Shown here: in pieces, positions 11,654 through 16,440 of the stretch | Layout: each line of letters begins with the position of its first letter | How positions within the stretch are numbered: position 1 is the first letter of the stretch | Assembly: GCF_001909285.1 (NCBI RefSeq) | Contig: NZ_MRSV01000001.1 | Span: 1 to 64,000 of the forward strand | DNA: 64,000 nt | DNA from: Exiguobacterium profundum | GTDB taxonomy: Bacteria; Bacillota; Bacilli; Exiguobacteriales; Exiguobacteriaceae | Reading direction: 5' to 3' | Made by a program: the position numbers and the translations under genes | The notes under the pieces: generated by a model | Told to the model about the DNA's origin: nothing | What the model saw: the letters and a program-made list of their open reading frames with translations, nothing else | Database searches by the model: none

Positions 11654-11826
11654 TTTGACTCTTTTTTGCCTAATTTGGAAGGAATCCTTTTACAGAATAT
11701 AGAAAGGAAAGAAACCGATTCATTTTCGTAGATGTAGGTTATCCTATCCATTTATTTTTGCACGTTTTAAGTCGAAAACAAGATATACTGAATATAAAGA
11801 GATTGCTAGGATCGGAGGACTTGCCA

Positions 11827-12144
11827 TTGGATCATCGTGACCCACCTTTTTCAGAAATTGGAGATTTTAATCAATGGGGACGTTTCGAGATTGACGTGCC
11901 TCACATGGGGGAGCAAGCGAAGTTTCAAACTGCCGCTGCTTTGATTCGGAAGCATGTGCCATTGCGGCTTGGTGGTTTTTACATTGTTGCGAGCGAAGAG
12001 GAAATTTTGCATAGTGGCTCTCATGATGCGAATCTTCAAAAACATTTGATTCATCTATTACAGCAGGTCCTTAACGGTCATATTGAAGACGAACGCCTCG
12101 TTCAAGAACAAGTGTGGACTGTGCATTATTTTACAACGCCATAG
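11827..12144 (+). CDS. Hypothetical protein, 105 residues
   Basis: I do not recognise a family. The likely start is the TTG at 11827, eight bases after GGAGG; the open frame extends 23 codons further upstream without a ribosome site. The product is soluble, mildly acidic and histidine-rich, with HYFTTP at its C-terminus and no signal peptide or membrane segment. It is a single-gene unit ended by the terminator at 12147-12187, which it shares with the convergent regulator gene. It lies at the left edge of the AT-richer quorum-sensing-like segment, but nothing ties it functionally to it. Confidence 0.6.
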   Translation: MDHRDPPFSEIGDFNQWGRFEIDVPHMGEQAKFQTAAALIRKHVPLRLGGFYIVASEEEILHSGSHDANLQKHLIHLLQQVLNGHIEDERLVQEQVWTVHYFTTP

Positions 12145-12191: not shown

Positions 12192-12348
12192 TTACTCCCA
12201 ACGTGACATCATTGAGATTGTTTTTTCATAGTATTCTGTAGCAAGTTTGTACTTTCCTGTGCTTCTTAATTCTCTAGACAACCACAATGCATACTTATGA
12301 GTGTAGTATTCATCATATGCTTCAAAATTAATTAACAGCCCTTTTTAG
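12192..12348 (-). pseudogene. Detached C-terminal TPR segment of the NprR-like regulator
   Basis: Directly behind the regulator stop, another minus-strand frame encodes about 50 residues (..FEAYDEYYTHKYALWLS.., ..TGKYKLATEYYEKTI..) of clear TPR helix character, ending in a stop at 12192-12194 just before the terminator. Deleting one base in the A-run complement of 12342-12346 (or the adjacent G3) joins it to the regulator and gives a protein of about 421 residues, the size of NprR. It is read as the missing C-terminus. Confidence 0.75.
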
Positions 12349-13458
12349 ACTTTGGATTAACTCATTTTGATCAATTTTTTTATACTTACTTACGTAAATA
12401 TCAAAGTGATAGTTAAACTCTACTAAATCATCTTGATCCCCTTTTAACTCATAGCCTATTGCCAACCATTCCATAATGCCTTCAATATTATTTTTAGCGG
12501 CATTGACTTCAAGCAAAGACATTACACTATATAGTTTACTTTTTGCTCCTTCTTTAACCTTAAAACTATCAAGAAAATATTTTTGTGCTTTCTCTTGATC
12601 CCCAATTAAAAAATATATATCCCCCATATTGTTATAAAGCATTCCATAATAATCGTTCAATTTTGCCTTATCTGCCACTTTCGCTGCTTTTTCATAATGT
12701 TCTAAAGCAATTGTGTATCGTTTCCGACGTTTAAATGACAAACCGATGATCATGTGCGACTCGATAATTCGTTCCAAGCAAAAATTCTCTTGAAAATACT
12801 CGAGTGCCAACTTCACGTAATCAATAGCTTGAGAATAATCTGTAAATCGGTGATAAAGTGCGCCCATCACATATCGCATATCTGCTTTTTCCCAATCAGG
12901 AATACTTGAATCCGCAAGCTCTTTACCAACATTCTCTAACAAACTCACAGTAGTTTCTCGATCAGCCGACTGATAGAGAAACATGTAGAGGCACTGCAAT
13001 AAATCGTATCGCAAACGATTGTCTTTGTTTAGTTGATCTTTAATCCAACCTACTTCAATTAAATATTGAACATTACCACCAGGTGTGAGACCAAATCGCG
13101 CTAGCGTGATTAATAAAGTAATGTACAATTCCTTCGATTGTAAGACAACAGGATTTGTTTTAAATTTTTCAATCCTCTTAAAATACTTATCTTCTTGGCG
13201 TGACAATAATGCTTCTTTCAATATATCTCGAATTTCTTTTTTAGTTTGATCTACTTTTTCACTGAAGTCATAATAAAGTGGAACCTCTAATTCTAACCTT
13301 TCAAAAATCAGTTCTAAGACTTCGTCACTAGGAGTAGTTTGATTATTTTCAATTTTACTTAAGTATGAGATTGAGCAGATTCCTCTAGCAAGCACTGACT
13401 GCTTCATATTTTTCCGCATACGTTCTACTTTTATTAAATTCCCAAAGTTATATTCCAT
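12328..13458 (-). CDS. HTH-TPR regulator of the RRNPP/NprR type, C-terminally frameshifted
   Basis: As it stands the frame encodes 376 residues. N-terminal HTH_3 domain (about 8-65, with GICSISYLSKIENNQTTPS), then about seven TPR repeats (for example YNNMGDIYFLIGDQEKAQKY). This is the architecture of the RRNPP family (Rap, Rgg, NprR, PlcR, PrgX), cytosolic receptors that bind a re-imported secreted peptide and change DNA binding. The start is the ATG at 13458, which begins the HTH; the frame is open 32 codons further upstream but without domain content. It is divergent from a two-gene unit ending in a repeat propeptide. The last TPR segment is out of frame. Base composition is more AT-rich than surrounding genes, suggesting separate ancestry. 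Confidence 0.85.
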   Translation of the reverse strand: MEYNFGNLIKVERMRKNMKQSVLARGICSISYLSKIENNQTTPSDEVLELIFERLELEVPLYYDFSEKVDQTKKEIRDILKEALLSRQEDKYFKRIEKFKTNPVVLQSKELYITLLITLARFGLTPGGNVQYLIEVGWIKDQLNKDNRLRYDLLQCLYMFLYQSADRETTVSLLENVGKELADSSIPDWEKADMRYVMGALYHRFTDYSQAIDYVKLALEYFQENFCLERIIESHMIIGLSFKRRKRYTIALEHYEKAAKVADKAKLNDYYGMLYNNMGDIYFLIGDQEKAQKYFLDSFKVKEGAKSKLYSVMSLLEVNAAKNNIEGIMEWLAIGYELKGDQDDLVEFNYHFDIYVSKYKKIDQNELIQSLKRAVN

Positions 13459-13632
13459 ATCAAAAAGTAGCCCCTTCGAACTAAAATGGTTGGTTTTTTC
13501 AAAAAATATTAGTCTTTTTGTCACGCATACAGGAAATTCGCCACAAAAAAGCATCTTAAAAGAGCATTTCTAGGAATGATTTTCCCAACCAAAACATCCC
13601 CCTTTATAAAAGATGACATGATAATATTGAAC

Positions 13633-13675
13633 TAGTAAAAACAGTTTCTACAAATTTCCTAGTTAATTTTTACTA
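13633..13675. promoter_or_regulatory. Inverted repeat in the divergent regulator/propeptide promoter region
   Basis: TAGTAAAAA (13633-13641) and its exact reverse complement TTTTTACTA (13667-13675), 34 bases centre to centre, lie between the regulator and the divergent operon. It is a candidate operator for the HTH-TPR regulator. In such AT-rich DNA a nine-base pair of arms can also arise by chance. Confidence 0.4.
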
Positions 13676-13717
13676 AATAACACATTTCAATTATTTATCC
13701 GGGGGTGAAAATGACAA

Positions 13718-14395
13718 ATGGGAAAACTAAGTTTCTTACTTGCCGAAGACTACATTAAGCCTAAAATTTATTTTAAGTCAAAGCAAGTTCCAACCATGGA
13801 TACAATGTACACTTCTGAAGATCATAATAATTTTTCAGGGTTAGAGCACCTGACCCAATTGTTAAGTTCTCCTAGAGGTTTCATTGTAAACGCTTTTCAA
13901 ATCGATTACTATCAATCATTACCTCGACTGATAGCTCGTTCATTGAATCACATTCACTCTTTCAAAAAACTTTATATTCTAGGACCTGAACTTTCCCTCT
14001 CGATTTTAAAACGAAGTACAAAAACAATTTATGAAAAACAGTTACTTGATTATGAATATATTAACGTTGAGCAGGATTCAGACTTTGTTACTAATCAATG
14101 CATGACCCTACTTGAAGAAGGACATATTTTGTATATTTTGCCCGAAACATCAGTTTGCTGGAGACCAAATTTACTCAATGAAACTGATAAGATATCACAT
14201 TCTCTTTGCAGTACGTTATTGAGTCAACAAGTAAATGTTTCTATTCTAGCAACTGCTGTAAAAAGTGAATCTGAAAAAGTAGTGATCTTTCCTGCCGACA
14301 CTCCAGATGCTTACTCAGGAGATTTGGAGACACGTATATATCAGCAATCTGAGACACTATACCGATTGTTCGATTCTTTGAAAGCTGACGAATGA
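13718..14395 (+). CDS. Protein of unknown function in the quorum-sensing-like locus
   Basis: A 225-residue protein I do not recognise. It has no signal peptide and no convincing membrane segment. Features: FIVNAFQIDYYQSLPRLIAR near residue 55 and a hydrophobic EEGHILYILPETSVCW stretch near 140-155. The overall pattern vaguely recalls the HtrB/PlsC acyltransferase fold (a lost ..HxxNW-like start, a central 'il-e' strand, a late pair of strands), but no HX4D motif is visible, so I assign nothing. RBS GGGGGTG sits 11 bases before the ATG. It is the first gene after the divergent promoter and is separated by 65 bases from the propeptide gene, so it is probably cotranscribed with it and under the regulator. 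AT-rich like its neighbours. Confidence 0.8.
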   Translation: MGKLSFLLAEDYIKPKIYFKSKQVPTMDTMYTSEDHNNFSGLEHLTQLLSSPRGFIVNAFQIDYYQSLPRLIARSLNHIHSFKKLYILGPELSLSILKRSTKTIYEKQLLDYEYINVEQDSDFVTNQCMTLLEEGHILYILPETSVCWRPNLLNETDKISHSLCSTLLSQQVNVSILATAVKSESEKVVIFPADTPDAYSGDLETRIYQQSETLYRLFDSLKADE

Positions 14396-14460
14396 TCTAT
14401 GATAATTTAGGTTTTTCTGCTTTAAAAGCATAAAATAATAATTTGATGGAGGTTTTATTA

Positions 14461-14763
14461 ATGAAAAAAGTAACAGGAATACTATTTATCGCTACAGCAG
14501 TTTTACTTTTAGGAAGTTCTGTTAGACCTCTAGTAGATGATATGCCTCGCATTGTTAAAGTAAATGAGCCCGTCAAATTACACGTTGATGATATGCCTCG
14601 TATCGTTAAAGTGAACGAACCAATCAAACTCTTTGTTGATGATATGCCTCGCATTGTTAAAGTAGACAAGCCTGCTAAACTATTCGTTGACGACATGCCT
14701 CGCATTGTTAAAGTAGATGAACCAGTTAAACTACTTGTTGATGATATGCCTCGCATCGTTTAA
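14461..14763 (+). CDS. Secreted multi-copy signal propeptide (five VDDMPRIV units)
   Basis: A 100-residue precursor. Residues 1-20 form a Sec-type signal (MKK, then a hydrophobic core). From residue 25 a 17-residue unit is repeated: VDDMPRIVKV + x-x-P-x-K-L-x, four full copies (25-41, 42-58, 59-75, 76-92) and a terminal copy cut exactly after VDDMPRIV (93-100). RRNPP propeptides such as NprX, PapR and Phr carry the mature signal at or near the C-terminus; here the C-terminal octapeptide is the repeated one, so VDDMPRIV or a shorter DMPRIV-like piece is the likely signal. Start: ATG eight bases after GGAGG. It is downstream of an unknown gene and divergent from an NprR-like receptor. Function is inferred from structure and context. 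Confidence 0.75.
   Translation: MKKVTGILFIATAVLLLGSSVRPLVDDMPRIVKVNEPVKLHVDDMPRIVKVNEPIKLFVDDMPRIVKVDKPAKLFVDDMPRIVKVDEPVKLLVDDMPRIV
14533..14760 (+). repeat. 51-bp in-frame tandem repeat of the propeptide
   Basis: Units start at 14533, 14584, 14635, 14686 and (partial, 24 bases) 14737. Across copies the eight core codons differ only synonymously (GTA/GTT, GAT/GAC, CGC/CGT, ATT/ATC), while linker positions change amino acids (N/D, E/K, V/I/A, H/F/L). That is the pattern expected if the octapeptide is the selected product. Confidence 0.95.
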
Positions 14764-14776
14764 TCTGATTTACTCC

Positions 14777-14799
14777 AGACGCCTTGTGCGTCTTTTTTC
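14777..14799 (+). terminator. Propeptide operon terminator
   Basis: AGACGC/GCGTCT hairpin followed by TTTTTT, 14 bases behind the propeptide stop. Confidence 0.85.
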
Positions 14800-14937: not shown

Positions 14938-16440
14938 TTGAATGAAACAAAATCATCATGGAGTTTAAAGCTGTTACTCAGCTCTTCACTTGCAATATCC
15001 GGGGCAGCAATCGTCCCGTTCCAACTGGATTCATCTGGTATTCAATCGACTGTTGCTGAAGCCGCCTCGACCTATACCACTACCGCCAACTTAAATCTTC
15101 GCTTAAGTGCAGCCACTTGGAGCCCTGTCCTGTTGACCATTCCATCTGGCTCAAGCGTCACGTATATCAGTACATACGGTTCGTGGTACAAAGTCAGTTA
15201 TGGAGGCAAAACAGGATATGTCTCTTCTCAATACGTTACGGTCTCGAACACTTCTGCTTACTATAAGACAACAGACCGATTAAATATGCGTCTTACTGCC
15301 GCTTCATGGAGCGATGTCGTCACCGTGATCCCTGCCGACGCGACCGTCAAGTATGTCAGTCGCTATGGGTCATGGTACAAAGTGACGTTCAATGGAAAGA
15401 CGGGCTACGTCGCTTCTGCTTATTTAACAGCTACGAGTGCTCCCGTCCCACCTTCGGACTATTATAAGACGACTGCCAATTTAAACCTTCGTCTCAGCGC
15501 CGCTTCATGGAGTTCTGTCGTCACGACGATTCCGTCGGGTGCGACGGTCAAATATGTGAGTCGCTACGGATCATGGTATAAGGTTACCTATAATGGAAAA
15601 ACTGGTTACGTTTCTTCTGACTATTTAACGGCGACGACAGCTCCTGTAACCCCGTCTGCTTATTATGAAACGACCGTGAACTTGAACATGCGCCTTAGCG
15701 CGGCCTCTTGGAGCAATGTCTTAACCGTCATTCCGGCCGGGTCGGTCGTCAAGTATGTCAGTCGTTACGACTCGTGGTATAAAGTCACATACAATGGAAA
15801 AACCGGTTATGTAGCATCCGAGTACTTGAAGCCTACGACTGTCACGACACCAACCGATACAGACGGAACTGGTAAAACGGTCGTCATCGACGCAGGGCAT
15901 GGCGGAAACGACCCTGGCGCTGTCTACGGATCGGTTTACGAGAAAGTAATTGCACTTGATATCGCGAAACGCCTTGCTGGCGTCTTATCGAGCACATATG
16001 ACTACAACGTTAAATTGACTCGCTCAAACGATACGTACCTCTCCCTTGACCAACGTGTGTCACTCAACAAGTCTTATAAAGGGGATGTGTTCGTCAGTCT
16101 TCACGCGAACTCTTCTGTTTATAACACGGCTCATGGACATGAGGTACTCGTCCCAACGTCAGATAGCTATACGACAAACCCTTACGTTTCTGCCAGCCGT
16201 AGTCTCGGCTCAAGTATCAATAAAGAGATCGCTTCACGGATTTCCACGATTCAAAACCGTGGGGTCAAGTATCAAAATGTATACGTAGTCGGACGTAACG
16301 TTTCACCTTCTACCCTTGTCGAATACGGATTCATCAGTAATTCAAGCGACCGCTCACATTTAACGAGTACGACATATCGCCAACGAATGGCTGAAGCAAC
16401 GGCATCCGGCATTCATCAATTCATGCGATCTTATTACTAA
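14938..16440 (+). CDS. N-acetylmuramoyl-L-alanine amidase with four SH3b domains
   Basis: A 500-residue secreted cell-wall hydrolase. Signal-like N-terminus (about 1-42), four bacterial SH3 repeats (about 43-100, 108-165, 175-235, 242-300; each with NLxxRLxAxxW and SWYKVxYxGKTGYV), then an Amidase_3 domain. Zinc and catalytic residues are visible: His321 (DAGHGG), Glu335 (VYEK), His389 (SLHANS) and Glu462 (LVEYGFISN). It cleaves the bond between MurNAc and the stem peptide. The TTG start lies eight bases after AAAGGAG, and no ATG gives a signal peptide. It forms a single-gene unit. Confidence 0.92.
   Translation: MNETKSSWSLKLLLSSSLAISGAAIVPFQLDSSGIQSTVAEAASTYTTTANLNLRLSAATWSPVLLTIPSGSSVTYISTYGSWYKVSYGGKTGYVSSQYVTVSNTSAYYKTTDRLNMRLTAASWSDVVTVIPADATVKYVSRYGSWYKVTFNGKTGYVASAYLTATSAPVPPSDYYKTTANLNLRLSAASWSSVVTTIPSGATVKYVSRYGSWYKVTYNGKTGYVSSDYLTATTAPVTPSAYYETTVNLNMRLSAASWSNVLTVIPAGSVVKYVSRYDSWYKVTYNGKTGYVASEYLKPTTVTTPTDTDGTGKTVVIDAGHGGNDPGAVYGSVYEKVIALDIAKRLAGVLSSTYDYNVKLTRSNDTYLSLDQRVSLNKSYKGDVFVSLHANSSVYNTAHGHEVLVPTSDSYTTNPYVSASRSLGSSINKEIASRISTIQNRGVKYQNVYVVGRNVSPSTLVEYGFISNSSDRSHLTSTTYRQRMAEATASGIHQFMRSYY

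Follow-up and report, generated by a model that had tools for sequence, protein, structure and literature searches.

The 64,000-nucleotide stretch of Exiguobacterium profundum DNA analysed here (contig NZ_MRSV01000001.1, positions 1 to 64,000; hereafter the window) contains, between positions 12195 and 14763, a cassette of three genes: a minus-strand receptor and, divergent from it on the plus strand, a middle gene followed by a precursor built of repeated octapeptides. We consider it very probable that this is a chromosomal, self-inducing cassette for quorum sensing by peptides, operating in the manner of NprR-NprX of Bacillus. The proposal is built on features read from the DNA and its relatives, namely the anatomy of the cassette, its linkage, the conservation of the repeated unit within each precursor, its co-divergence with the receptor and the fixed geometry of the promoter. 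The features of the cassette are the following.

12328 to 13458, minus strand: NprR-like receptor with helix-turn-helix (HTH) and tetratricopeptide repeat (TPR) domains, from Pfam HTH_3 and TPR, alignment with 17 relatives, a structure model and solved structures.
12195 to 12330, minus strand: out-of-frame remnant of the C-terminal TPR of the receptor, from a second profile piece (12195-12611) on the same strand.
13532 to 13536, strand not assigned: GGAAA, a possible distal half-site.
13581 to 13623, plus strand: TTTCCCAAC box with TGATA (extended -10-like), a candidate activator-dependent promoter.
13718 to 14395, plus strand: middle gene, for a pseudo-acyltransferase-fold protein of 225 residues.
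14461 to 14763, plus strand: secreted-type pheromone precursor of 100 residues, from 17 homologues including its own and a hydrophobic core.
About 14461 to 14523, plus strand: hydrophobic signal of the precursor, from hydrophobicity.
14533 to 14556, plus strand: unit 1, VDDMPRIV.
14584 to 14607, plus strand: unit 2, VDDMPRIV.
14635 to 14658, plus strand: unit 3, VDDMPRIV.
14686 to 14709, plus strand: unit 4, VDDMPRIV.
14737 to 14760, plus strand: unit 5, VDDMPRIV, C-terminal.
14777 to 14793, plus strand: intrinsic terminator-like stem 3' of the precursor.

At the N-terminus of the precursor, Lys-Lys and a hydrophobic stretch (KD12 2.8) were taken as its putative secretion signal by hydrophobicity; five VDDMPRIV units separated by nine-residue linkers follow, the last unit being the C-terminus. 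The repeat period is 17 residues (period 51 and score 268 in Tandem Repeats Finder), so the five in-frame copies that the original prediction described in a 100-residue secreted-type protein are present as stated. The gene lies 65 nt behind the middle gene and is preceded by a GGAGG ribosome-binding site. Precursors could be read in 17 of the 18 loci (the contig of G002 ends too early, and this genome is outside all unit analyses), and since all 17 carry two or more copies of the unit, a chance origin of the array is untenable. The number of copies varies among relatives, from two to five: five in 3 precursors, four in 12, three in 1 and two in 1. Units were recognised by a pattern with P and R fixed at positions 5-6 and a limited choice of residues at positions 1-3 and 7, and constancy at these places is therefore partly by construction; a degenerate first copy in G009 is outside the count. 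In total there are 68 unit copies of 15 types, and the 17 precursors have 11 majority units: VDDMPRIV, VDEMPRIG, ADEMPRIG, VDEMPRLT, AEEAPRIT, GEDFPRLA, GEDLPRLT, GEELPRLG, ADDFPRLT, AEERPRIV and ADERPRLF. The residue before the unit is hydrophobic in 62 of the 68 units and Lys follows in 43 of 48 nine-residue linkers, an arrangement that would suit cleavage before and at the end of each unit.

All copies are identical in 11 of the 17 precursors. The final copy is unlike the inner ones in G005, G004, G018, G006 and G010, the C-terminal copy deviating from identical inner copies in 5 of the 17 precursors (L043, L044, L045, L049, L052), for example as VDELPRLV after VDEMPRLT; one precursor may thus possibly yield two dialects. 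The two counted copies differ in G009, whose precursor (L051:7183-7401), with one degenerate and two divergent copies, is decaying, yet its receptor is whole.

The comparison of copies argues for selection on the octapeptide, as the original prediction had proposed. Summed over the ten pairs of the five core copies in the window, there are 22 synonymous and no non-synonymous differences, and the linkers between the same copies also differ in amino acids. Across the genomes, units are 95% identical within a genome (106 pairs) and 52% between genomes (2172 pairs). For the nine-residue linkers the values are 51% within genomes (52 pairs) and 36% between them (1076 pairs). Linkers conserved around a changing octapeptide had been named as the pattern that would speak against the prediction; the reverse is found within each precursor, and between species the octapeptide changes too. 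Within genomes, silent divergence is equal in units and linkers (pS of 0.62 and 0.63), and amino-acid divergence is about six times lower in the units (pN of 0.046 against 0.273 in linkers, the linker values covering those of nine residues). Because silent divergence is equal and amino-acid divergence so much lower, the copies are, as judged from these comparisons, old and kept alike by selection, the whole set having been changed between species. A rank test for a copy-specific silent signature across pherotype changes was not significant (681 of 5000) for 62 pairs of the 12 four-copy genomes, and conversion and parallel substitution look the same here because silent sites appear saturated.

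The unit changes together with the receptor. In the 16 genomes with four readable neighbour genes (G004 was dropped for its short contig), the distance between majority units correlates with the receptor distance with an r of 0.84, and with those of the histidine kinase, the 128-residue orphan, the middle gene and the amidase with an r of 0.44-0.50. The partial correlation between unit and receptor, given all four neighbours, is 0.80, and 0 of 2000 permutations were as high. In the 15 genomes left after G009 was also dropped, the partial correlation with the receptor is 0.37 for the linkers (2 of 1000 permutations) and 0.27 for the signal sequence (22 of 1000). Since the value is 0.80 for the units and weaker for the rest of the same protein, these figures speak for a signal and a receptor that co-evolve rather than for joint inheritance alone. 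In G007 and G015, for example, the receptors are 87% alike and the units differ at two positions.

The receptor starts at an ATG at 13458 that is conserved in relatives, and runs for 376 residues to a stop at 12328-12330. The window receptor stops short of TPR9, and the corresponding sequence is present in a different frame (two profile pieces); all 17 relatives read have 419-421 residues, in line with the predicted whole length of about 421. The cause is either a recent mutation, which would leave the protein signal-deaf, or an assembly error; there is one genome per species. The original description as an NprR-like HTH-TPR protein is borne out by the Pfam domains and by an AlphaFold2 model of the G016 receptor, which has nine TPR pairs (pLDDT 84.3, low in the HTH part). 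Apo NprR comes first in a Foldseek search of this model (5dbk, E 3.3e-9, equal to RapI), followed by NprR-NprX and Rap, while VIA-align gave 29.8 for Rap, 29.1 for NprR and about 21 for AimR. Asn277 (G016 numbering) is invariant in 18 of 18 receptors and in three plasmid receptors, and is aligned with an Asn of NprR that we take to contact the peptide. Length and domains are those of the TPR receptors of the RRNPPA family (250-500 residues, with an HTH except in Rap). NprR and Rap are structurally tied, and we call the receptor NprR-like rather than Rap-like because it has the HTH that Rap lacks (PMC4970707). As regards residues that follow the unit, the receptor columns that do so are not enriched on the A helices of the TPRs (16 of the 40 top columns, 90 of the 255 variable ones), and the idea that they line the concave surface was dropped.

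A relative of the receptor, 54-89% identical, is present in 17 of the 18 other genomes of the genus group (18 of 19 with the window's own), and the middle gene occurs in the identical set of 18. The latter is absent from the other genus of the family (19 genomes), and a search of 398 genomes of the class yielded no further match; each of the 13 named contigs with this gene is Exiguobacterium. The genome without both genes is G012, in which the best match to the histidine kinase is 44% identical and the cassette neighbourhood seems to be absent or diverged. The middle gene stands between receptor and precursor in 17 of the 17 loci with a precursor, and the predicted linkage is kept in every locus readable at both ends. 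No precursor without the regulator was found, in a weak test in which precursors were located beside the other two genes and the precursor alone was searched for in plasmid and phage collections. A mobile-element origin was tried and rejected: searches of plasmid, phage and IMG/VR collections found nothing for the middle gene, the precursor queried alone has no match in the plasmid and phage collections, and the receptor has no phage match, 12 plasmid records of low identity and six IMG/VR matches, all confined to residues 1-58.

Between the divergent starts, TTTCCCAA(C/T) stands exactly 38 nt before TG(A/T)TA, first base to first base, in 18 of 18 loci. The spacer is poorly conserved, and a distance that stays constant over freely varying sequence suggests that a protein bound there makes contact with RNA polymerase. 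GGAAA is found 48-50 nt upstream of TTTCCCAA in 16 of the 18. The exact composite gave one site at the cassette in 17 of 19 genomes. G002 has two additional sites, G011 (where the locus reads TGTTA) and G012 have none, and the reversed control gave 0. As an exact pattern, the one form covered, it has a single site in the genome of the window strain, and the cassette may therefore act mainly on its own expression. At the other end of the operon, the single terminator-like stem at 14777-14793 (shuffled sequence averages 1.3) carries weight only through the recurrence of similar stems in relatives: a GACGC/GCGTC-type stem with a T run was seen by eye in the 60 nt behind 15 of the 17 precursors; it is missing in G006 and cut off in G001.

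On these grounds, we propose that the precursor would be exported by Sec, that extracellular proteases would cut before each unit, after the hydrophobic residue, and at its end, and that several identical acidic-x-Pro-Arg peptides would be released. An oligopeptide permease would re-import them (the window's genome has five SBP_bac_5 places), and they would bind the TPR superhelix of the receptor, which would activate the divergent operon of middle gene and precursor via the TTTCCCAA box in a positive loop.

Several points weigh against this proposal. The signal peptide was judged by hydrophobicity only, and we infer cleavage, import, binding and activation from sequence. The linkers and the signal sequence retain a weak partial correlation with the receptor and, without an enrichment on TPR A helices, part of the co-divergence may be phylogeny. 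In a sequence-profile search of solved structures, designed consensus TPR proteins came first, ahead of two NprR chains and Rap3T. Finally, the signal gene is not adjacent to the receptor gene, unlike in the published Bacillales layout (PMC9765709).

Three other explanations were weighed. The copies could owe their likeness merely to recent expansion of the array or to homogenisation through DNA repair, with no selection acting on the octapeptide; an expansion did take place in G013, where the linkers are nearly identical as well, and as a sole cause it is contradicted by the copies themselves, whose units match the linkers in silent divergence but show about sixfold less divergence in amino acids, which leaves this account with hardly any credibility. 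The repeat protein could also be an exported effector, such as an antimicrobial or surface peptide array, beside an HTH-TPR protein that is merely a local regulator sensing something else. Repeats do occur in secreted structural and antimicrobial proteins, and the binding of unit to receptor enters our proposal as a predicted step; the effector account is nevertheless improbable, given that the joint divergence of unit and receptor goes beyond what four neighbour genes account for and is much weaker for the linkers of that protein, that the fold is that of peptide receptors, and that short secreted-type open reading frames (ORFs) follow the nearest receptors outside the genus.

The third explanation makes the middle protein the point of the cassette, as one that modifies or carries the signal, for example as an acyl or lipid binder, to give a lipopeptide-type signal. 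This protein has the PatA/LpxL/PlsC (LPLAT) acyltransferase fold, is always encoded between receptor and precursor and is confined to the genomes with the rest of the cassette. Unlike those acyltransferases, it belongs to no Pfam or NCBIfam family and lacks the catalytic H-x4-D/E after the first core strand, with AFQ(I/V)DYYQ at that place in 18 of 18 sequences, against H-x4-E in 13 of 13 aligned family members; H-x4-D/E occurs scattered outside the alignment in 5 of the 18. With the motif missing throughout, and no acylated signal reported for any known RRNPPA system in the literature drawn on, a lipopeptide signal is unlikely. Within the quorum-sensing proposal, we suggest the pseudo-acyltransferase as the output of the system or a helper of the signal. 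More tentatively, the induced operon might hold the multi-copy signal together with this dedicated, catalytically dead protein as its direct output or signal partner, a species changing its pherotype by changing all three to five copies along with the receptor. Residues 1-19 of the middle protein (window 13718-13774) are nearly invariant, in 17 of 19 columns over 18 sequences, and disordered in the model, and are a possible binding motif.

The nearest receptors found outside the genus, in a plasmid collection, are 22-28% identical (12 records). Nine of these records (H1, H2, H5-H7, H9-H12) were examined, and a short secreted-type ORF stands behind the receptor in seven, none being found in the other two; six of the seven passed a ribosome-site and hydrophobicity filter, and the Priestia ORF, which is annotated, did not. 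Their motifs are EEEFPEP, DDEILPP (twice, near-identical), EEDPGP, EEEFPPF and EQDYPNP, and the 137-residue precursor of Mesobacillus foraminis has six PPPLAP copies, as in DEEFPPPLAP and GEELPPPLAP. A strict order of two acidic residues, hydrophobic residue(s) and Pro is found in 5 of the 7. The resemblance of these motifs to GEELPRLG and GEDFPRLA, recognised post hoc and therefore no more than a lead, suggests an acidic-Pro signal type common to these receptors. The Mesobacillus foraminis precursor (NZ_CP033045.1; L107:4254-4667) lies 12 nt behind its NprR-like receptor and adjoins thioesterase, phosphopantetheinyl transferase and nonribosomal peptide synthetase genes, a cluster of the peptide-antibiotic type. 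These plasmid systems thus share a related receptor and, in one case, a multi-copy precursor with the cassette, and differ in having the precursor directly behind the receptor, without a middle gene.

With NprR-NprX itself, the cassette shares the HTH, nine TPRs and equal length (NprR 64-418 aligned to model 64-418), and a putatively secreted precursor. Unlike NprR-NprX, it has a divergent layout with an intervening gene, a different signal, three to five copies as the rule of the clade (two clear copies in G009) and a non-spore-forming host (PMC5521131). The signal gene of that subfamily is directly downstream of the receptor gene; here it is divergent and one gene apart, and for this reason the receptor is called NprR-like and not filed as NprR. 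The original prediction compared the octapeptide in style with the NprX signal family; the x-P-x-I-V style is common to both, and the likeness ends there, NprX being SKPDIVG (PMC5641580). The Rap-Phr systems with duplicated pheromones of phi3T and phi105 have the nine-TPR fold and identical signal copies in one precursor (PMC11343458), with a Rap that, unlike our receptor, has no HTH.

The prediction stands as to receptor type, linkage and selection. Its case for novelty is only partly right, and its view that multi-copy precursors are unusual is not supported, as these are already published: up to six identical copies, each of 17 long NprR-associated precursors having repeats (PMC9765709), and a mention of up to eight copies (PMC11343458). 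For one strain of Exiguobacterium, an NprR gene is on record from KEGG annotation, with no signal named (PMC5521131), and the main text of PMC12700828 does not name the genus. In the open-access literature, supplements excluded, where an entry is possible, we found no published description of the Exiguobacterium signal, middle gene or pherotype series. Multi-copy precursors are known, and the pherotype series, the pseudo-acyltransferase and the layout are new.

Two neighbouring genes accompany the cassette. A 128-residue protein without Pfam or NCBIfam match (window 11758-12144) adjoins the receptor and shares the distribution of the cassette, in 18 of 38 genomes of the order and not in G012. 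Downstream, an amidase with four SH3 domains (window 14938-16440) stands beside the cassette in 16 of 18 loci, the remaining two contigs ending early.

For the window strain, the shortened receptor would mean signal deafness if the frame change is genuine and was not introduced during assembly. RRNPP_detector demands a precursor gene directly adjacent to the receptor gene (PMC10075063), and with a gene between them in 17 of 17 loci, the layout described here would escape detectors of this kind. The cassette also offers a candidate role in peptide signalling for a catalytically dead acyltransferase fold. For the genus, the 11 majority units of the 17 precursors, each with its receptor, form a natural series for how a multi-copy signal changes without losing its receptor.
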